This document shows, piece by piece, positions 2,977-14,081 of a stretch of DNA of 34,462 nt (its first letter is position 1; every line of letters starts with the position of its first letter). The stretch comes from a virus: positions 1 through 34,462 of the IMG/VR virus record IMGVR_UViG_3300017708_000052. The stretch is one strand, 5' to 3'. Made by a program: the position numbers and the translations under genes. Below the pieces are notes generated by a model. That model worked only from the letters and a program-made list of their open reading frames with translations, searched no databases and was not told the origin of the DNA.

Positions 2977-2978
2977 TA

Positions 2979-3016
2979 GTATATATAGGCAGTAGTATAT
3001 ACCTGTTTTATCTTTT
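2979..3016 (+). terminator. weak terminator candidate after lysozyme gene
   Basis: GTATATA (2979-2985) pairs with TATATAC (2996-3002), followed by the T-rich CTGTTTTATCTTTT. The stem is all A-T except one G-C pair, so it is weak. Its place at the end of the late operon suits a terminator. Confidence 0.25.
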
Positions 3017-3019
3017 ATT

Positions 3020-3042
3020 ATCTATCTTATACGGGAACCTTA
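3020..3042 (-). promoter_or_regulatory. phage RNA polymerase promoter-like element, reversed
   Basis: Read on the - strand this is TAAGGTTCCCGTATAAGATA, matching the + strand element at 3328-3347 over 19 bases and the copy at 6212 over its first 10. If active it would transcribe leftward into the 3' end of the lysozyme gene. It is the only copy found in this orientation. Confidence 0.5.
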
Positions 3043-3150
3043 ATATTTGGTAAAAAATTATGAAGGGGTATATCGTACATAGAAAAGCCGAGTTTCCCCG
3101 TGTATATCTAAGGACAGCAGCAGCGGATGACCCATAGTAACACACAAAGA

Positions 3151-3213
3151 GCCGGCTAAGTTGTATATATAGGGTATTCTTTGGGTAGGCTGTGCGGGTG
3201 CCGGCGGTTTTTT
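3151..3213 (+). terminator. weak long-loop terminator candidate
   Basis: GCCGGC at 3151-3156 can pair with GCCGGC at 3200-3205, which is followed by GG and six T residues (3208-3213). The loop of about 43 nt is long and each GCCGGC is self-complementary, so the call is tentative. It lies between the two inverted promoter elements. Confidence 0.2.
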
Positions 3214-3327
3214 GTTTAAGGTGTGCCTTTGTGCTAGTCTGTTTTTTTAGTTTGGTACACATAGCATACACAAAGAATACACGTATCATACATATAGTAT
3301 ACACGCAGCAACACACACAATATATAT

Positions 3328-3350
3328 AAAGGTTCCCGTATAAGATATAT
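3328..3350 (+). promoter_or_regulatory. phage RNA polymerase promoter, leftmost copy
   Basis: AAAGGTTCCC followed by five bases and AGATA matches the copies at 6212, 8723, 18458 and 32877. It precedes the whole early region and could correspond in position to the leftmost phage promoter (phiOL) of T7, which also serves replication. Expected initiation is at or near the AGA. Confidence 0.6.
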
Positions 3351-3397
3351 ACAAGTCAATACAGTGTATACTATGTGTATATATGTATGTGTGTATG

Positions 3398-3447
3398 TAC
3401 TCAGGGTATACTTAGAGTATATACTCAGGTGTCATAGGTGTACTCAG
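3398..3447 (+). repeat. TACTCAG direct repeats in a TGTATAC-rich tract
   Basis: TACTCAG occurs at 3398-3404, 3422-3428 and 3441-3447, inside a run of alternating GTATAC and TATATAC sequence from about 3361 to 3470. T7 carries arrays of 7-base repeats beside its terminal repeat; this could be a diverged counterpart, by inference from position. Confidence 0.45.
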
Positions 3448-3532
3448 TGTATATACTCTTTATAACTATCTAATATAGGTATAGAATAGAGGTGTCTGTT
3501 TTTTTCTTAGTCATGCATATCATGCATACCTG

Positions 3533-3562
3533 TTATGCAAACATAGCATAAGACAATATAAT
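3533..3562 (+). promoter_or_regulatory. weak host sigma-70 promoter candidate
   Basis: A perfect TATAAT lies at 3557-3562, about 18 bases after TTATGC (3533-3538), a poor -35 match. A T7-like phage needs host promoters upstream of its early genes, and this is the best -10 sequence I found there. TTATGC also pairs with GCATAA at 3546-3551. Confidence 0.25.
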
Positions 3563-3624
3563 TGTTTTCGTTTATAGTGTTTTTATGTTCAATAATTTAA
3601 ATACTTACCATGTGCTAACAGCAG

Positions 3625-3701
3625 TGACAGCAGGCTTAAGCTTAAGTTTTAAATTGTTTCTGACAGCCTCAGCAGCATAGAGGTTACACGGGTGTGACAG
3701 C
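3625..3701 (+). repeat. TGACAGC direct repeats about 35 bases apart
   Basis: TGACAGC occurs at 3625-3631, 3661-3667 and 3695-3701 (spacings 36 and 34), in a more GC-rich stretch than its surroundings. The even spacing hints at a protein-binding array or repeated RNA elements in the early leader. No function can be assigned. Confidence 0.4.
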
Positions 3702-3775
3702 CCCAAATAAGTCGGACACCGCACCAGTAGAGATACGAGCCGGTCAAGCGCTTCAGCGTCATTGCTTTGAGCCAG

Positions 3776-3796
3776 TACAAACAACCTATGTTTGTA
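3776..3796 (+). promoter_or_regulatory. hairpin competing with hammerhead stem III
   Basis: TACAAACA (3776-3783) pairs perfectly with TGTTTGTA (3789-3796) across a 5-nt loop, giving 8 bp. The right arm is also the 5' arm of stem III plus the GUA cleavage site of the ribozyme at 3789-3844, so the two folds exclude each other. The hairpin is transcribed first. After cleavage behind A3796 it would sit exactly at the 3' end of the upstream product. Confidence 0.7.
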
Positions 3797-3844
3797 TCAT
3801 ATTATTTTATATGACTGATGAGCTCCAGTAGAGCGAAACAAACA
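3789..3844 (+). ncRNA. hammerhead ribozyme 1 (type III)
   Basis: Stem III is open: TGTTTG (3789-3794) pairs with CAAACA (3839-3844). The cleavage triplet is GUA (3794-3796). Stem I is the hairpin TCATAT/ATATGA (3797-3802 with 3809-3814). The core CUGAUGA is at 3815-3821, stem II is GCTC/GAGC (3822-3825 with 3831-3834, loop CAGTA), and GAAA is at 3835-3838. All conserved core bases are present and the A15.1-U16.1 pair is intact. Predicted cleavage is after A3796. The Shine-Dalgarno sequence of the gene at 3854 directly follows the stem III arm. Confidence 0.92.
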
Positions 3845-3853
3845 AAGGACGTT

Positions 3854-4018
3854 ATGAAATACAATCACACTATACAAAAAATACTTACTAAGCACCATGC
3901 GGACAAGTTCAAAGACGCTGCAAACAAAGCAGCATTTTTGTCTAACTATGCCAAAGAGACTGACAAAGTAAAAAAAATTGAGATGTTAAGAGAAGCAAAC
4001 AGACAAGGATGGATATAA
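3854..4018 (+). CDS. hypothetical early protein
   Basis: This 54-residue basic protein (MKYNHTIQKILTKHH...) is the first gene of the early region. The frame is open from 3818, but the upstream ATG lies inside the ribozyme core. ATG 3854 follows AAAGGAC (3844-3850) and is preferred. The sequence is rich in Lys, Ala and Asn and predicted helical, with no membrane segment and no recognised domain. Its end overlaps the next gene by 10 nt. In T7 the first early gene product (gp0.3) blocks host restriction; that role cannot be inferred here from sequence. Confidence 0.7.
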   Translation: MKYNHTIQKILTKHHADKFKDAANKAAFLSNYAKETDKVKKIEMLREANRQGWI

Positions 4019-4332
4019 ATATGGATATTGCACAAATTAATTTCCCAATTAATGACAATGACGGCGCTAAGTTAATGGCGCCGTTGTTAATTCAAAAAGA
4101 GCTATGCGCTGAGTTTGGCGGGTGTACAGCCTATGACGGCGCCGGCTCATGGGTCAGCGATGATGGCAAGTTATACGCTGAGCCAGTTAAGATAATACAA
4201 ACAGCATTTAAAAATAATTCTAAGAATAGATTGTTTTTAAAAAACTTAGTTAAGAAATACGGCAAGATTTCCAAACAAGAAGCCGTTTATCTTGCTATTA
4301 ATAACAAGGCTGATATAATTAATATTAAGTAA
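4009..4332 (+). CDS. hypothetical early protein, GSWV-DDGKLY type
   Basis: The 107-residue protein begins at ATG 4009 after AAGGATGG; an in-frame ATG at 4021 is an alternative. The first half has a conserved-looking stretch with PLLIQKELCAEFGG and GSWVSDDGKLYAEPVKI (about residues 25-63), of a kind I associate with small phage and plasmid accessory proteins of unknown role. The C-terminal part is Lys- and Asn-rich (KNLVKKYGKISKQEAVYLAIN). It overlaps the preceding gene by 10 nt, so both should share one processed mRNA between ribozymes 1 and 2. Its TAA stop (4330-4332) lies inside stem I of ribozyme 2. Base composition is more GC-rich (GGCGCC, GCCGGC) than the phage average. Confidence 0.8.
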   Translation: MDINMDIAQINFPINDNDGAKLMAPLLIQKELCAEFGGCTAYDGAGSWVSDDGKLYAEPVKIIQTAFKNNSKNRLFLKNLVKKYGKISKQEAVYLAINNKADIINIK

Positions 4333-4394
4333 CACTGATGAGCTGTTATTCAGCGAAACTGAGCGGCGCCTTACCTTGCCGCTTAGTCTGTTAC
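4329..4394 (+). ncRNA. hammerhead ribozyme 2 (type I)
   Basis: Stem I is open: GTAACA (4329-4334) pairs with TGTTAC (4389-4394). CUGAUGA is at 4335-4341, stem II is GCTG/CAGC (4342-4345 with 4351-4354, loop TTATT), and GAAA is at 4355-4358. Stem III is a 9-bp hairpin (4359-4367 with 4378-4386, one G-U pair), and the cleavage triplet is GUC (4386-4388). Predicted cleavage is after C4388. The TAA stop of the upstream gene is bases 2-4 of the stem I arm, so a terminating ribosome would mask the fold. Confidence 0.95.
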
Positions 4395-4403
4395 ATAAGT
4401 AAC
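4390..4403 (+). promoter_or_regulatory. refolding hairpin at 5' end of ribozyme 2 product
   Basis: GTTAC (4390-4394, the 3' arm of stem I) can pair with GTAAC (4399-4403) over the tetraloop ATAA. The pairing competes with stem I and would cap the 5'-OH end of the downstream mRNA after cleavage. Confidence 0.5.
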
Positions 4404-4429
4404 TACAAACAAACAAACTAAAGGACACT

Positions 4430-4792
4430 ATGCAAAAACATTATTTAAGAACTACAAAAAACCTTTATAGCTGCACTGACAGCGGCGTGACTGTTTATTA
4501 CTCATACGTCACACCGGTAGCAATTAGAGACCCATTTGGAGTGTTACATGTTAGCCAAAATGGATGGAGCGTTACAACTGGTAGACACTTAACATGGATT
4601 GACGGCGGCAGCCCTGAAGCAAAAAAGCGTAGACTTAGCGGCGAGGATTTTGTAAAGCTTATGAAATTATACGGCGTTGAGCGTTCTTATAATTTACAAT
4701 CAGGCTTTATACGTCCTAAGACTGACACGGTGCCGGACATCATTAAGTTTGATGAGCAGTTACCGGACAGCCTGCAACTGTTAAAAATATAA
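4430..4792 (+). CDS. hypothetical early protein
   Basis: This 120-residue protein starts at ATG 4430 after AAAGGAC (about 4420-4426). It contains LYSCTDSGVTVYYSYVTPVAIRD, a GxxHVSQNGWSVTTGRHL segment (about residues 37-54) and a basic stretch, EAKKRRLSGEDFVKLM. The pattern of a tyrosine-rich strand, a W-S-xTTxRH core and a basic helix resembles small DNA- or RNA-associated proteins carried by phages and plasmids, but I cannot name the family. It is the only gene between ribozymes 2 and 3, so it would have its own processed mRNA. GC-rich motifs (GCGGCG, CGGCGG, CCGG) set it apart from the AT-rich late genes. Confidence 0.8.
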   Translation: MQKHYLRTTKNLYSCTDSGVTVYYSYVTPVAIRDPFGVLHVSQNGWSVTTGRHLTWIDGGSPEAKKRRLSGEDFVKLMKLYGVERSYNLQSGFIRPKTDTVPDIIKFDEQLPDSLQLLKI

Positions 4793-4802
4793 TAATAAAC
4801 AA

Positions 4803-4872
4803 AGAGCGAAACATTGCGCCGTTGTAACGTCCGGCGCTTTGTCTCATGGTTAAGCCATGACTGATGAGCTCT
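4803..4872 (+). ncRNA. hammerhead ribozyme 3 (type II)
   Basis: Stem II is open: AGAGC (4803-4807) pairs with GCTCT (4868-4872). GAAA (4808-4811) comes first, then a stem III hairpin: CA pairs with TG, a UU/UU internal loop follows, and GCGCCG (4816-4821) pairs with CGGCGC (4832-4837). The cleavage triplet is GUC (4841-4843). The stem I hairpin is TCATGG/CCATGA (4844-4849 with 4855-4860), followed by CUGAUGA (4861-4867). Predicted cleavage is after C4843. The upstream gene's stop (4790-4792) is 10 nt away. A conventional order starting from CUGAUGA would give a poor stem II and a GAAC core, so type II is the only good fold. Confidence 0.88.
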
Positions 4873-4923
4873 AGCTAATAGACGGCGAACTTTTATCAGC
4901 AACCAAACAAACCAAAGGATGTT

Positions 4924-5055
4924 ATGAATATACTACTAAAAATACTTTATGATTTTTTACATCAAAGAGTATTAGCTGACGAGCAAGCTTTTAGAAATAA
5001 AAGACTAGCCGTGAGAATGAAGTTAAACAACGGTTACAGTAAGGCGGGTCATTAA
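4924..5055 (+). CDS. small hypothetical early protein
   Basis: This 43-residue gene starts at ATG 4924 after AAAGGAT (4914-4920) and ends at TAA 5053-5055, overlapping the next ATG by one base (TAATG). The N-terminus is amphipathic or weakly hydrophobic (MNILLKILYDFLHQRVL) and the remainder is basic (FRNKRLAVRMKLNN). The strong ribosome binding site and the coupled downstream gene support expression. The leader matches those following the other ribozymes. No function is recognised. Confidence 0.65.
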   Translation: MNILLKILYDFLHQRVLADEQAFRNKRLAVRMKLNNGYSKAGH

Positions 5056-5360
5056 TGGCTAATATCGTTGTATCTAACTTTATTAATGAGCGTTGGGTTG
5101 ACCGGTTGTATCAGAATTTTAATAAGTCAGTATACTTGTTAAAACCTGATGGCAAGGTTGACCCGTGCAAAGTAAAAAAGGTCAAGTCAAAATACTATCT
5201 AACCAGTACTGGTAAATGGTTTAATAGTGCAGGTCTCAGAATTGATGAGCCTGCGGGTCTTGATAAACGAGCGGAGCTAAGCAAGTTTAAGTCTGAGATT
5301 GAAAAAGATGAGACTGATGCAAAGTTCCAAAAACTAAAACAAACAATAAGAGGTAATTAA
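5055..5360 (+). CDS. hypothetical early protein
   Basis: The 101-residue protein begins at a TAATG overlap with the preceding gene. It has a structured N-terminal part with aromatic and basic residues (ERWVDRLYQNFNKSVYLL, then CKVKKVKSKYYLTSTGKWFNSAGLRID) and ends in a charged helix (KRAELSKFKSEIEKDETDAKFQKLKQ). No known domain was recognised. The next gene follows by 1 nt. It is the second of three genes on the mRNA predicted between ribozymes 3 and 4. Confidence 0.75.
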   Translation: MANIVVSNFINERWVDRLYQNFNKSVYLLKPDGKVDPCKVKKVKSKYYLTSTGKWFNSAGLRIDEPAGLDKRAELSKFKSEIEKDETDAKFQKLKQTIRGN

Positions 5361-5361
5361 T

Positions 5362-5574
5362 ATGCATGTAAGTAAATATGATGTACAAGTAATAGGTGAT
5401 AAATGGAATGAAAAAAAAGATAAATATGAAGGCGGATATACAATAGTACGTCTTAACAGTGATGAAGGTATACGTTTTAAAAAATTAATACCTTTAGTTG
5501 CTGAGCTTGACGAGGCACATGACGGCACTGAAATTGAAGTTAGTGTCATTATAAAACAAAGAAGTTACGAGTAA
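5362..5574 (+). CDS. hypothetical early protein
   Basis: This 70-residue protein, starting at ATG 5362, is predicted mostly beta (YDVQVIGDKW, GGYTIVRLN, GTEIEVSVIIKQRSYE), with an acidic linker. No family was recognised. It starts one base after the preceding stop. The last codons and the TAA stop (5572-5574) form part of stem I of ribozyme 4, and GTTA at 5564-5567 can pair with TAAC at 5572-5575, a short hairpin competing with that stem. Confidence 0.72.
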   Translation: MHVSKYDVQVIGDKWNEKKDKYEGGYTIVRLNSDEGIRFKKLIPLVAELDEAHDGTEIEVSVIIKQRSYE

Positions 5575-5655
5575 CACTGATGAGCCTGTTATGCGTGGTG
5601 AGTGAATACCACGTGGCGAAACTAGAGCCGGTACTATCCGGCTTTAGTCTGTTAC
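5571..5655 (+). ncRNA. hammerhead ribozyme 4 (type I)
   Basis: Stem I is GTAACA (5571-5576) with TGTTAC (5650-5655). CUGAUGA is at 5577-5583. Stem II starts with GCC/GGC (5584-5586 with 5615-5617), continues past an asymmetric internal loop, and ends in a 6-bp hairpin (5594-5599 with 5608-5613). GAAA is at 5618-5621, stem III is a 10-bp hairpin (5622-5631 with 5638-5647, one G-U pair), and the cleavage triplet is GUC (5647-5649). Predicted cleavage is after C5649. The stem I arms are identical to those of ribozyme 2, and both again contain the upstream stop codon. The large stem II internal loop may make the loop-loop contacts known to speed hammerheads. Confidence 0.95.
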
Positions 5656-5679
5656 AATCTAACCAAAGGAGCTTAAACC

Positions 5680-5862
5680 ATGATTGAACTAATACTAGAA
5701 CTACCATTTGAAGGACATGTATTAATACTAGGTGCGATAATAACGGGTATAATACATGTAATGCAAACACCTAAGAAGGAGCGTAGCATCAACCCTTTTG
5801 AACAAACAACACAACTAACAGATAAACAAATCAAATCATTACAGGAGCACAATGACAGATAA
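5680..5862 (+). CDS. small membrane protein, early region
   Basis: The 60-residue protein has one hydrophobic segment at about residues 11-28 (GHVLILGAIITGIIHVM) followed by a polar tail with Lys and Gln (PKKERSINPFEQTTQLTDKQI). ATG 5680 follows AAAGGAGC (5665-5672), a strong Shine-Dalgarno sequence placed just after ribozyme 4. It overlaps the next gene by 11 nt. A role at the host membrane is likely from topology; nothing more specific can be said. Confidence 0.72.
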   Translation: MIELILELPFEGHVLILGAIITGIIHVMQTPKKERSINPFEQTTQLTDKQIKSLQEHNDR

Positions 5863-6214
5863 AGAACAAATACAACATTTGATTGATAAGAATAATAAAT
5901 TAGAGGCTGAGCTTATTGTCTTAAAAACCAAAGCAACGGGATGGTTTGAAGATATAGCTGAGTTTCGTAATACATTAATGATTAGAAATAGTGAGCTTAA
6001 CCAATACAAAAATATCAAAGTAGATTGGGAGCTTAAAAAGAAAATCATATTGTTTTTACAGAAAACGCAATCTGTTGAAGCGTATGACGCAATGACACCA
6101 AACCAAATAGCACATAGAGCGGCACATTTTATAGAGAATATACTTACATCTAAACTGCCACCAAAACTTGCTATTCCACTTGAGCTACAAGTTACTACGA
6201 GGGAGCCTGACTAA
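5852..6214 (+). CDS. hypothetical coiled-coil protein before RNA polymerase
   Basis: The 120-residue protein opens with a long charged helix (residues 1-27, heptad pattern in IQHLIDKNNKLEAELIVLKTKA), then a second helix and a C-terminal segment with MTPNQIAHRAAHFIENIL. ATG 5852 follows AGGAG. It is the last gene before the RNA polymerase, and its TAA stop (6212-6214) forms the first bases of the phage promoter there. No family was recognised. Confidence 0.75.
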   Translation: MTDKEQIQHLIDKNNKLEAELIVLKTKATGWFEDIAEFRNTLMIRNSELNQYKNIKVDWELKKKIILFLQKTQSVEAYDAMTPNQIAHRAAHFIENILTSKLPPKLAIPLELQVTTREPD

Positions 6215-6271: not shown

Positions 6272-8719
6272 ATGGCACGACTGATTGAGAGTATGCCTAC
6301 TTATAAAGATGAAGTAGAGCACGAAAAAGAGATGAGGAACTTAGGTTCAAACAGAACTAATAAGCGTCTTCATTCTCACATTGAGAGAGAAGAAGAAAGT
6401 GTTACCAGTTATGGAAAAGTAATGGTAGCAAACACAATAAGACCTTTAGCAATGGCTATTGCTGAATGGACACAAGAACAATCTAAAAAGACAATAGGCA
6501 AACCTTCTATTGCCTTCTTAAAGATGTGTGAAGTTGAGCCTGAGATACTGGCACTAATTACTGGTAAACACATCATAAATACAATCACACAATACAAACC
6601 TTTAACAGCAACGTGCATAAGTTTAGGTGGTAAAGTTGAGACTGAGATTAGTCTTAAAAACTTTAAACATCTAAACCCTGATTTGTACCAAACAGTTAAA
6701 CAAGACTTAGACAAACGTAGTTTTAATTATACTTACAAGCGTAGAAAATTAAGAGAGAGTGCCAAACGTGACGAGGTAATGAAATGGGAAGAGTGGACAA
6801 CACCTGTTAAATTACACGTAGGTCTTAGACTTGTAGAGCTTATGATTTATGCAACAGGTATGATTGAGATAGGTACTGAAACTGTTAAACATAAAAAAGC
6901 AAAGATAATCAAACAGACTGACAAAACTAGAGAGTGGATTAAAAGTAGAAACAGTTTTAATGAACTGTTAAATCCGGAATACTTACCTACAGTCATGCCA
7001 CCAAAATTATGGACGTCAGTTGTAGGTGGCGGTTATTGGACTAAAGAGCTTCCTGAACTTGAGCTTGTTAAACAAAAAAACAAGAAATACAAAAAGGAAC
7101 TTGAAAACTTTGACATGCCTGAAGTGTATGACGCTGTTAATACAATGCAAGCAACACCATTTAAGATTAATAATTTTATCTTAAAAGTTATGCAAGAAGC
7201 ATGGGACAAAGGGTTAGCTGTTGGTGGTATGCCGCCTAGTACTAACTTTGATATTCCAAACAAACCGCATGACATTGAAACTAATGTTGACAGTAGAAGA
7301 GAATGGAAGAAGAGAGCTGTTATGGCTCACACTGAAAATGCTAGAATGTTTTCTAAACGTTTATTGTATGCTAAAATTATACACCTTGCACAAAAGTTTA
7401 AAGATTATGCAACGTTGTATTTTCCAGTTCAATTAGACTTTAGAGGTAGAGCGTATGCAGTACCGGCATTTTTAAACTATCAATCTATTGGTGGTGCTAA
7501 AGCTTTGTTGTCTTTTTCACAAGGCAAAGCAATCACAAAAGAAAACAAAGGTGATTATTGGTTGGCTATACACGGTGCTAACCAATACGGTGAAGATAAA
7601 ATATCGTTTGCTGACAGAGTAAAATGGACTAACGATAATGAGAGTTGGATTATTGATTGTGCTACAGACCCAATGTTACATAGACAATGGGAAAATGCAT
7701 CTAATCCATTTCAGTTTTTAGCATTTTGTGATGAGTGGAAAAGATTTAAAGAACAAGGATATGGTTTTATTTCTAGTATTCCTGTTAATGTAGACGGTTC
7801 TTGTAACGGTCTTCAAATCTATTCTTTAATGTTAAGAGACGAAAAAGCAGGCAAGCTTGTTAATTGTTTGCCTAGTGCTACACCGCAAGACATTTATCAA
7901 TTAGTTGCAGATGCAGTTAATGATAAATTAAAACAGCATGCAGCTGAAAACAAACCGTATGCTCAGTTGTGGTTAGACTACGGAGTTAAGCGTTCAACTA
8001 CTAAAAGAAGTATCATGACTATCTGTTATGGTTCAACTAGATATTCATGTACTGACTTTGTAATTGAAGACTTAACAAAACGTAAAGACAAGGGAGAGAA
8101 CCATCCATTTCAAGATGAGATATTCAGACCGGCTAGTTATTTAGCAAGTGTCATATGGGACAGTATCGGTGATAATCTGAAATCTGCTAGGACTGGAATG
8201 GACTATCTACAAACAATCGCACGTACAGTTGCGAAACAACAACTACCAGTGCATTGGGTAACGCCGGTTGGCTTTCCAGTGTATCAGTCATATCCAGAGA
8301 TGAAGTCTAAAAGAGTTAAGGCTATGTTGATGGGTGAAGTTATTAAGCCTCGTATAAATACTGAGACTGACTTAACTGACAAACTACGAATGGGTAACGG
8401 AGTAGCACCTAACGTAGTTCACTCGGTGGACAGTGCAGCTATGATGAGTACAGTTAATATTGCTTATAAAAATGGTATTACTAATTTCTGTAACGTACAT
8501 GATAGTTTTGGCACAACAGCAGGTGATGTTGAAACACTTAATAAATCTATTAGAGAAGCATTTATTAAAATGTTTAGTGAGAATGATATTCTTGATAATT
8601 TTAGGAATGACGTTCTTAGACAATTACCTGAAGAGCTACACGATAAATTACCTGAAGTTCCCGCCAAAGGTGATTTAGATATTCAACAACTGCGGGACAG
8701 TGAGTTCTTTTTTGCGTAG
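6272..8719 (+). CDS. T7-type single-subunit RNA polymerase (gp1)
   Basis: The 815-residue enzyme (T7: 883) transcribes phage genes from the repeated promoters in this window. Palm motif A, VNVDGSCNGLQ, has catalytic Asp508; motif B, TTKRSIMTICYGS, has Lys578 and Tyr586, spaced like T7 Lys631 and Tyr639; motif C, NVHDSFG, has Asp744, 71 residues from the C-terminus as in T7 Asp812. The segment YFPVQLDFRGRAYAVP matches the family. The protein ends in EFFFA, like the T7 C-terminal foot (DFAFA) that enters the active site. The start ATG 6272 follows TAGGAG. The shortening relative to T7 falls mainly before and between the motifs, not at the C-terminus. Confidence 0.98.
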   Translation: MARLIESMPTYKDEVEHEKEMRNLGSNRTNKRLHSHIEREEESVTSYGKVMVANTIRPLAMAIAEWTQEQSKKTIGKPSIAFLKMCEVEPEILALITGKHIINTITQYKPLTATCISLGGKVETEISLKNFKHLNPDLYQTVKQDLDKRSFNYTYKRRKLRESAKRDEVMKWEEWTTPVKLHVGLRLVELMIYATGMIEIGTETVKHKKAKIIKQTDKTREWIKSRNSFNELLNPEYLPTVMPPKLWTSVVGGGYWTKELPELELVKQKNKKYKKELENFDMPEVYDAVNTMQATPFKINNFILKVMQEAWDKGLAVGGMPPSTNFDIPNKPHDIETNVDSRREWKKRAVMAHTENARMFSKRLLYAKIIHLAQKFKDYATLYFPVQLDFRGRAYAVPAFLNYQSIGGAKALLSFSQGKAITKENKGDYWLAIHGANQYGEDKISFADRVKWTNDNESWIIDCATDPMLHRQWENASNPFQFLAFCDEWKRFKEQGYGFISSIPVNVDGSCNGLQIYSLMLRDEKAGKLVNCLPSATPQDIYQLVADAVNDKLKQHAAENKPYAQLWLDYGVKRSTTKRSIMTICYGSTRYSCTDFVIEDLTKRKDKGENHPFQDEIFRPASYLASVIWDSIGDNLKSARTGMDYLQTIARTVAKQQLPVHWVTPVGFPVYQSYPEMKSKRVKAMLMGEVIKPRINTETDLTDKLRMGNGVAPNVVHSVDSAAMMSTVNIAYKNGITNFCNVHDSFGTTAGDVETLNKSIREAFIKMFSENDILDNFRNDVLRQLPEELHDKLPEVPAKGDLDIQQLRDSEFFFA

Positions 8720-8722
8720 CAT

Positions 8723-8750
8723 TAAAGTACCCATAGTAGAATGGAGAAAC
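8723..8750 (+). promoter_or_regulatory. phage RNA polymerase promoter upstream of SSB
   Basis: TAAAGTACCC (8723-8732), ATAGT, then AGAATGGAGAAACA leads directly into the SSB start. The GGAG in the presumed initial transcript also serves as the Shine-Dalgarno sequence, giving a very short 5' leader. Confidence 0.65.
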
Positions 8751-12348: not shown

Positions 12349-14081
12349 GATACATATTTGATATAGAAACTGATGGATTTCTTAACGTCTGTACTAAAAT
12401 ACATTGTTTAGTTTTAAAAGATGTAGACACTAATGAGTTTTTGTCTTTATCAGTTGATGAAGCATTAGATAAATTATCTACAGCAAAAGAAATTATAGGA
12501 CACAACATTATAAAATTTGATTTGCCTGTAATAAAAAAATTATATCCTACCTTTAAAACTGAAGCAAAAATTTTTGACACACTTGTAGCAACAAGATTGT
12601 TATTTCCAGATGTAAAAGAAAAAGATTTTCAACGTAAAGATTTTCCAAAAGATTGTATAGGAAGACACAGTTTAAAAGCATGGGGTAATAGAATAGGCAA
12701 TTACAAAGCACAGTTTGATACAGACTGGCAAACTTTCACACCTGAGATGCTAGAGTATTGTAAACAAGATGTAGAAGTAACTTATAATCTTCACAAAATG
12801 ATACATGAAGATATGAAATATTCTCAACAAGCTATGGACTTAGAGCACTCTGTAGCACAATTAATTTATAATCAAGAAGTTTATGGTTTTAGTTTTAATA
12901 CTGAAGAAGCTAGAAAACTTTATTCAGAATTAAATGGTAGACGAATGGAAATAGAATACAAGTTACAAGTAATGTTTCCACCTGAAAAAGAACACATACC
13001 TTTTATACCTAAAGTAAATAACAAAGCTAGAGGATATGTTAAGGGTGAAGTATTCTATAAAGAAAAAACTATTATCTTTAATCCATCTAGTAGACAACAT
13101 ATTTCAGATAGATTAATTAAAATACACGGATGGAAACCTAAAGTTTATACTGATGATGGTAAGCCTAAGTTAGATGAAACTATTTTAGAAAGTTTACCAT
13201 ACCCTGAAGCTAAAATATTATGTGAGCATTTTCTATTAGATAAAAGAATTGGTCAGTTAGCTACTGGAGCTCAAGCTTGGTTAAAGCATGAGAAGAATAA
13301 TAAAATACATGGTACTTGCAATACTAATTCAACAGTAACTGCAAGAGCAACACACTCATACCCAAACATGGCACAAATTCCAAGTGTTAGTGTGAAATAT
13401 GGTAAAGAGTGTAGAGCATTATTCACGGTTCCAACTGGTAAAAAACTTGTAGGCATTGATGTCTCAGGTTTAGAGGTGAGAATGTTGGCTCACTACATGG
13501 CTAAGTACGATAACGGCAACTATGCTAAAGTTGTTTTAGATGGTGATATACACTCTGAAACAAAAACATTAGCAGGGTTAGATAGCAGAGACTTAGCCAA
13601 ACGTTTTTACTACTGTTTTCTTTACGGTGGTGGTGTTAAAAAGATTGCAGCAGTTACAAATAAAACTGTAGCAGAAGCATCTAAGATAAAGAAACGTTTC
13701 TTAAATAACTTACCTGCATTAAACAAACTAATTGAAAATGTACAGCAAGCAGCTGAACGTGGTTACTTAGTAGGTCTTGATAAGAGACGTGTTAAAGTAC
13801 GTTCAAGCCATGCTGCATTAAACACGTTGCTTCAATCGTCCGGAGCCTTAGTGTGTAAGCAGTGGTTAGTAGAGTTTGATAAAGTGATTAAAAAAATACC
13901 TGAAGCACATCAAGTAGTGTGGGTACATGATGAAATACAAGTAGAGTGTCTTGAAAAAGATGCTGAGCAAGTTGGGCAATTAGCCGTAAAAGCAATAAAA
14001 GACACTGGTAAGTATTTTGATTTAAGACTTCCGCTAACTGGTGAATACAAGATAGGAGATAACTGGAGTGAAACACACTGA
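12345..14081 (+). CDS. DNA polymerase, family A with 3'-5' exonuclease (gp5-like)
   Basis: The 578-residue replicative polymerase has an N-terminal proofreading domain (FDIETDG with Asp6 and Glu8; GHNIIKFDLPV; a YCKQDVEVTY ExoIII-like motif) and a polymerase domain with motif A (GIDVSGLEVR, Asp372), motif B (DLAKRFYYCFLYGGG) and motif C (WVHDEIQVE, Asp529). It ends in NWSETH; the terminal His is shared with T7 gp5. T7 gp5 is 704 residues. Much of the difference lies between LQVMFPP and IFNPSSRQHI, where only about 30 residues stand in place of the longer T7 stretch carrying the thioredoxin-binding loop. It overlaps its neighbours on both sides. Confidence 0.97.
   Translation: MRYIFDIETDGFLNVCTKIHCLVLKDVDTNEFLSLSVDEALDKLSTAKEIIGHNIIKFDLPVIKKLYPTFKTEAKIFDTLVATRLLFPDVKEKDFQRKDFPKDCIGRHSLKAWGNRIGNYKAQFDTDWQTFTPEMLEYCKQDVEVTYNLHKMIHEDMKYSQQAMDLEHSVAQLIYNQEVYGFSFNTEEARKLYSELNGRRMEIEYKLQVMFPPEKEHIPFIPKVNNKARGYVKGEVFYKEKTIIFNPSSRQHISDRLIKIHGWKPKVYTDDGKPKLDETILESLPYPEAKILCEHFLLDKRIGQLATGAQAWLKHEKNNKIHGTCNTNSTVTARATHSYPNMAQIPSVSVKYGKECRALFTVPTGKKLVGIDVSGLEVRMLAHYMAKYDNGNYAKVVLDGDIHSETKTLAGLDSRDLAKRFYYCFLYGGGVKKIAAVTNKTVAEASKIKKRFLNNLPALNKLIENVQQAAERGYLVGLDKRRVKVRSSHAALNTLLQSSGALVCKQWLVEFDKVIKKIPEAHQVVWVHDEIQVECLEKDAEQVGQLAVKAIKDTGKYFDLRLPLTGEYKIGDNWSETH

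Follow-up and report, generated by a model that had tools for sequence, protein, structure and literature searches.

Four hammerheads upstream of the RNA polymerase gene

The window analysed here is a complete IMG/VR record (IMGVR_UViG_3300017708_000052) of 34,462 bases from a T7-like Pelagibacter phage (Autographiviridae, Pelagivirus), whose RNA polymerase is 99.1% identical to that of the cultured Pelagibacter phage HTVC142P and 91-96% identical to those of HTVC031P, Eistla and HTVC168P. On its plus strand lie, in this order, a terminase gene (840-2489), an endolysin gene (2491-2976), a gap of about 0.8 kb, eight small early genes referred to as e1-e8 (3854-6214) and the RNA polymerase gene (6272-8719). 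As in a T7-like early region, the small genes stand 5' of the gene for a single-subunit RNA polymerase, and the synteny of e1-e8 is conserved; the phage is apparently integrase-less, T7-like and marine. The array of hammerhead ribozyme motifs upstream of the RNA polymerase gene brings all three hammerhead topologies together in one operon, in the order III, I, II, I:

3789-3844, plus strand: site A, type III hammerhead, predicted cut after 3796 (GUA); scanner, fold, Rfam and covariation
4329-4394, plus strand: site B, type I hammerhead, predicted cut after 4388 (GUC); scanner, fold and covariation
4803-4872, plus strand: site C, type II hammerhead, predicted cut after 4843 (GUC); scanner, fold and covariation
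5571-5655, plus strand: site D, type I hammerhead with an extended stem II, predicted cut after 5649 (GUC); scanner, fold and covariation

The motifs were located with a custom scanner that requires CUGANGA, GAAA, an A15.1-U16.1 pair, H17 and three helices in any of the three circular permutations. All four lie in gene junctions on the plus strand and have the core CUGANGA...GAAA with the A15.1-U16.1 pair, and the minus strand of the window gave no scanner match. Sites A-D score 17-22; the single match in 10.3 Mb of Markov-shuffled window sequence scored 14, a frequency that rules out a chance origin of the motifs. Another scanner match, at 13143-13227 (score 15), was rejected as spurious, because it falls within DNA polymerase coding sequence that relatives conserve as protein. 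At each of the four sites the unconstrained minimum-free-energy fold is a complete hammerhead (z -2.5 to -4.6). A preliminary description, made from the letters of the window, had placed four complete, junctional hammerheads on the plus strand; the independent scanner returned exactly its positions and identical cuts, and the fold optimum agrees.

Comparison with Rfam hammerhead models gave a full-length match at one site. The type III model RF00008 (Hammerhead_3) matches site A from end to end (E 8.5e-6), yet at 37.6 bits the match stays below the curated cut-off of 48.5; site B gave a weak match below the gathering score, and the types I and II found here are missed or nearly missed. At the gathering score Rfam reported no hammerhead in the window. 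The GenBank records fetched for the relatives annotate no ribozyme feature, which may be because the Rfam cut-offs miss these motifs.

Conservation, covariation and exchange of topology

Early regions of relatives were obtained by RNA polymerase homology and binned by RNA polymerase identity. The close set comprises 34 loci whose RNA polymerase is 80% identical or more and for which 2.4 kb or more of upstream sequence is present. Every one of these loci has at least two hammerheads and 32/34 have at least three, with 120 hammerheads in sense and 0 in antisense orientation. At 60-80% identity, 20 of 28 loci have at least one hammerhead and 8 have at least two, and more distant T7-like phages and prophages have essentially none (0/9 loci at 45-60% identity, 2/84 below 45%). 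With all loci pooled, the count is 163 sense and 0 antisense. Hammerheads are confined to the early region in the complete relatives L001-L003.

The covariation scores for types I, II and III were 0.50, 0.58 and 0.47, against 0.12-0.17 after shuffling (0/500 as high), and collapsed to 0.001-0.13 when the pairing partners were slid. Two-sided changes occurred in 7/9, 14/20 and 13/19 counted pairs. In the type I set, where MAFFT did not align stem III correctly, this stem was tabulated by position from the core. Among unique related motifs the core varies at N7 only (CUGAUGA, CUGAAGA or CUGACGA), an invariance that is partly by construction, as the scanner required the core; the cleavage triplet, where stems III and I meet, is GUC in 82, GUA in 14 and GUU in 1, each of the form NUH. 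Loop letters are conserved as well, for example CAG in loop II of the type III motifs, which is suggestive only of a tertiary contact between stem I and stem II. With scores so far above shuffles, the hammerhead identity put forward in the preliminary description stands: comparison with related phages shows the motifs to be real hammerheads kept by selection, and their self-cleavage is likely.

In the syntenic order, the array reads III-e1-e2-I-e3-II-e4-e5-e6-I-e7-e8-RNA polymerase. The junction before e3 holds a hammerhead in 38 of 44 orthologs, 34 of them type I and 4 type III, and none in the other 6. At the junction preceding e7, type I was counted 48 times and type II 3 times, and within the e3-e6 interval one clade has type II and another type I. 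As far as comparison of the relatives shows, then, the phages keep predicted cuts at fixed junctions but may exchange one topology (I, II or III) for another. Such a change cannot be reached by point mutation, so that selection appears to act on a cut at the junction rather than on a single inherited motif. At type I sites with an upstream open reading frame, the stop codon lies within -12 to +8 of the motif in 50 of 71 cases (median 0).

Hammerheads also occur in other T7-like elements. A group of relatives that mostly carry an integrase (L088-L091, L254, L053, L203, L214 and L217) retains a single type I hammerhead, and in the annotated integrase-bearing relatives it stands a few genes 5' of the marR and integrase genes. 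In a T7-like prophage of Chelatococcus sambhunathii (L106), two hammerheads, one of type I and one of type II (6025-6085 and 6593-6660), flank one gene. These lie upstream of a MarR-like gene, an integrase gene and an RNA polymerase gene, an order that includes the ribozyme-marR-integrase neighbourhood of Agrobacterium and hints that the published Agrobacterium array may sit in a similar T7-like element. No hammerheads were found in the upstream regions of four Rhizobiaceae T7-like prophages. A distant T7-like viral contig with 41% RNA polymerase identity (L241) contains three type I hammerheads at 3602-5316.

Predicted new RNA ends and surrounding features

In types I and II, stem III lies directly 5' of the cut, so that the upstream RNA would end in a GC-rich hairpin with a one-base overhang; in types II and III, stem I lies directly 3' of the cut and the downstream RNA would start with a hairpin, a feature that type I alone is without. 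By construction of the motif, the pairing probability of the upstream 3' end is 0.96 for type I and 0.93 for type II, and that of the downstream 5' end is 0.92 for type II and 0.88 for type III. For the type I downstream 5' end, where pairing is not given by construction, the probability is 0.60 against 0.42 with shuffled flanks, and 55 of 76 sites lie above the control. Many type I sites have a second copy of the released strand's partner a few bases downstream, with which that strand can form what we call a capture hairpin; at site B, UGUUAC is followed by AUAA GUAAC. The released strand and its downstream partner co-vary (GUUGC/GCAAC, UAUUGC/GCAAUA, UCAGC/GCUGA and AUUUGC/GCAAAU). When flanks were permuted among these related type I sites, the observed pairing was reached in 0/5000 permutations of the discovery set and in 208/10,000 for 20 held-out sites (p 0.02). 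One type I hammerhead of the distant contig L241 has a perfect capture hairpin of 6 base pairs. The hairpins of the window are:

4390-4403, plus strand: capture hairpin GUUAC-AUAA-GUAAC, formed by the released stem I strand of site B at the new 5' end
5651-5663, plus strand: weak capture hairpin GUUA-CAAUC-UAAC of site D, 4 base pairs, absent from the minimum-energy fold
3777-3795, plus strand: hairpin ACAAACA-ACCUA-UGUUUGU, upstream strand of site A stem III after cleavage, present in the minimum-energy fold of the product
4844-4860, plus strand: stem I of site C, 5'-terminal hairpin of the downstream RNA after the cut
4861-4899, plus strand: predicted post-cleavage hairpin pairing the core strand CUGAUGAG (4861-4868) with UUUAUCAG (4892-4899), in the fold of the downstream product only

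The hairpin at 3777-3795 can form in the predicted fold; after cleavage at site A it would close off the leader fragment at its 3' end. Capture partners were dropped as a class feature after type II sites (permutation 1172/2000) and before type III sites (105/2000; upstream pairing borderline, p 0.05). From these folds we infer that the new RNA ends tend to be hairpin-sealed.

The array is interleaved with the following features:

3854-4018, plus strand: early gene e1, 54 amino acids, from open reading frame and synteny, no PHROG match
4021-4332, plus strand: early gene e2, DUF3574-like, phrog_3543; stop codon (4330-4332) within stem I of site B
4430-4792, plus strand: early gene e3, 120 amino acids, phrog_5643
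4924-5055, plus strand: early gene e4, 43 amino acids
5055-5360, plus strand: early gene e5, 101 amino acids
5362-5574, plus strand: early gene e6, 70 amino acids; stop codon (5572-5574) within stem I of site D
5680-5862, plus strand: early gene e7, 60 amino acids
5852-6214, plus strand: early gene e8, 120 amino acids
6219-6229, plus strand: promoter-like motif CCCATAGTAGA, conserved, directly 5' of the RNA polymerase gene, putative function
6272-8719, plus strand: single-subunit phage RNA polymerase gene, downstream boundary of the array

The assignment of e2 to DUF3574 is the sole functional one among the proteins of e1-e8. A second copy of CCCATAGTAGA directly follows the RNA polymerase gene (8730-8740) and a related copy lies at 3131-3139; the motif is conserved around the RNA polymerase gene in L001, L002, L003, L005, L071 and L086. 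It is a candidate promoter for the phage RNA polymerase, and because it flanks that gene in several relatives, later transcription may bypass the array. The stretch at 2977-3788, about 0.8 kb without clear genes, is rich in TATA/ACAC runs and has, near 3190-3215, a GC-rich hairpin followed by T; it is probably the genome-end and early promoter region. The leaders at 3845-3853, 4403-4429, 4900-4923 and 5660-5679 share an unstructured AAC(AAAC)n-AAAGGA stretch 5' of the start codon, which is present too at junctions that have no ribozyme.

Probable maturation of early messenger RNA by self-cleavage

In T7, host RNase III cuts the early messenger RNA (mRNA) at gene junctions. For the Pelagibacter phage, we think it likely that the four hammerheads are cis-acting processing elements through which the early mRNA would mature autonomously. 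One polycistronic RNA would be transcribed from a presumed start upstream of 3789, and each ribozyme would fold on emerging and cut after 3796, 4388, 4843 or 5649, giving a trimmed leader and mRNAs for e1-e2, e3, e4-e6 and e7-e8 plus downstream genes. At type I sites the released strand would refold with the downstream copy of its partner into a 5' hairpin. Hairpins would shield 3' ends with a 2',3'-cyclic phosphate from 3' exonucleases, and 5'-hydroxyl ends from the 5'-sensing RNase E; RNase E/G was detected in 8/8 genomes of SAR11, the bacteria that these phages infect. Processing of this kind would yield the early mRNAs as separate, stable units with no need for a protein nuclease. The division of the operon into units, as the preliminary description had it, fits with predicted cuts that keep to fixed junctions despite a change of topology.

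Several points weigh against self-processing. The alignments consist of scanner-selected matches, so that their near-100% pairing is partly by construction, which does not apply to the two-sided changes or to the collapse with slid partners; the sites in the flank permutations are related, which makes the p-values optimistic. Several clades (L104, L200 and the integrase-bearing relatives) lack the capture partner, and at site D it is weak. The last cut would detach e7-e8 from the upstream genes, not the polymerase gene itself. Accessibility of the ribosome-binding site is little changed by cutting at B, C and D, with a modest rise at A (0.51 to 0.66), and unmasking of this site through cleavage was therefore dropped as an explanation. 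Finally, the preliminary description had cleavage by the ribozymes replacing RNase III, a claim that the comparison did not support: RNase III was detected in 4 of 6 SAR11 genomes, which are incomplete, and an ancestral use of RNase III sites at these junctions is hypothetical. A host that is without RNase III is ruled out, since SAR11 encodes the enzyme, and its absence cannot explain a need for self-processing.

That the ribozymes instead serve as switches, with translation of the upstream gene, a ligand or an ion governing cleavage and thereby early gene dosage, strikes us as unlikely, if worth keeping in view. A terminating ribosome would cover stem I where the type I motif overlaps or abuts the upstream stop codon, as it often does, and an alternative pairing for the stem I strand is available just downstream; the overlap may, however, simply reflect genome compaction, the loops are short and differ between sites, no conserved aptamer-like domain is present, and Rfam finds no riboswitch. 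Translation may modulate cleavage as a rival to self-processing or in addition to it. We regard as very improbable that the motifs are selfish or decaying hitchhikers with no role in expression. Mobile elements often carry self-cleaving ribozymes (PMC3088659), turnover of the small early genes is fast and the arrays vary between clades, but the motifs occupy sense, junctional positions only, their cores are intact with compensatory changes, their topology is replaced at orthologous junctions, and no mobile-element sequence was noticed in their company.

Paired hammerheads might also free the RNA between them, which an RNA ligase would then circularise, as happens with retrozymes and viroid-like RNAs. 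Consecutive cuts would release segments of 592, 455 and 806 nucleotides with compatible 5'-hydroxyl and 2',3'-cyclic-phosphate ends, for which RtcB is the usual ligase. This enzyme was not found in 8/8 SAR11 genomes (incomplete), however, the sealing hairpins would hinder joining, and Perreault et al. saw no circular products from phage arrays (PMC3088659), all of which makes circular products highly improbable. As SAR11 encodes RNase III and RNase E/G, and junction cutting by RNase III is established for T7 early mRNA, the hammerhead-like folds could in principle be mere hairpin substrates of these host nucleases; a hairpin substrate needs neither an invariant CUGANGA/GAAA core nor an NUH site nor three topologies, and we find this explanation extremely improbable.

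Self-processing has precedents. The preliminary description knew of no chain of hammerheads in a T7-like early operon, and its claim to novelty holds in part: a 2011 publication already described phage hammerheads in clusters and proposed that long phage transcripts are cut by them into mRNAs the length of an operon or a gene, with cleavage in vitro for three phage arrays and in Escherichia coli for the Agrobacterium ardA array (PMC3088659). Our literature search found no link of hammerheads to pelagiphages or Autographiviridae, although subscription papers lay mostly outside it and an earlier report is possible. A later paper notes an enrichment of bacterial hammerheads in the vicinity of Mu-like phage genes and of other self-cleaving ribozymes, and leaves its cause unexplained (PMC10085705); a 2017 review treated their role in bacteria and phages as an open question (PMC6155905).

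The pelagiphage array resembles the prophage arrays, including the triple ardA array of Agrobacterium tumefaciens near marR and integrase genes, in being of mixed type, on one strand and flanking single genes or short gene blocks; like the published clusters, it has several same-strand hammerheads in close series flanking phage genes (PMC3088659). The proposal of gene-length mRNAs is the same, with cleavage shown for those arrays and predicted for this one. The published arrays lie in prophages and have no constant gene neighbours, whereas the pelagiphage early operon is conserved gene by gene across the lineage, and topology exchange at orthologous junctions and capture hairpins stand on the pelagiphage side of this contrast. 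HHphage of the haloviruses HF1 and HF2 likewise has an early-gene position, 13 nucleotides 5' of an early-gene operon, with a mapped transcript 5' end at most 3 nucleotides from the cut (PMC3088659), but it is a single hammerhead with a variant core in an archaeal virus. The likeness to T7 lies in junction cuts that divide an early transcript, from the region around the phage RNA polymerase gene and before it, into stable units. In T7 a host protein cuts RNA duplexes, whereas in the pelagiphages the RNA would cut itself, leaving 5'-hydroxyl and 2',3'-cyclic-phosphate ends. The novelty lies in an array that is conserved within a T7-like early operon, mixes topologies and would seal the ends it creates.

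We advance more tentatively, and with somewhat more doubt than confidence, the wider proposal that RNA catalysis alone matures the early mRNA in an entire lineage of abundant marine phages; topologies would be interchangeable at fixed junctions, both ends would be hairpin-sealed, and a covarying type I capture hairpin would make the cut irreversible and protect the 5' end. HTVC031P, HTVC142P, HTVC168P and Eistla carry arrays, and these cultured phage-SAR11 pairs make the role directly testable; each cut site is predicted with single-base precision, and relatives that have one hammerhead, as HTVC019P does, or none provide natural controls. The capture-hairpin pattern would give a simple design rule for one-way ribozyme cleavage with stable products. 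If the hammerheads are active, T7-like phages process their early mRNA in two alternative ways, with the RNase III of the host or with ribozymes of their own.

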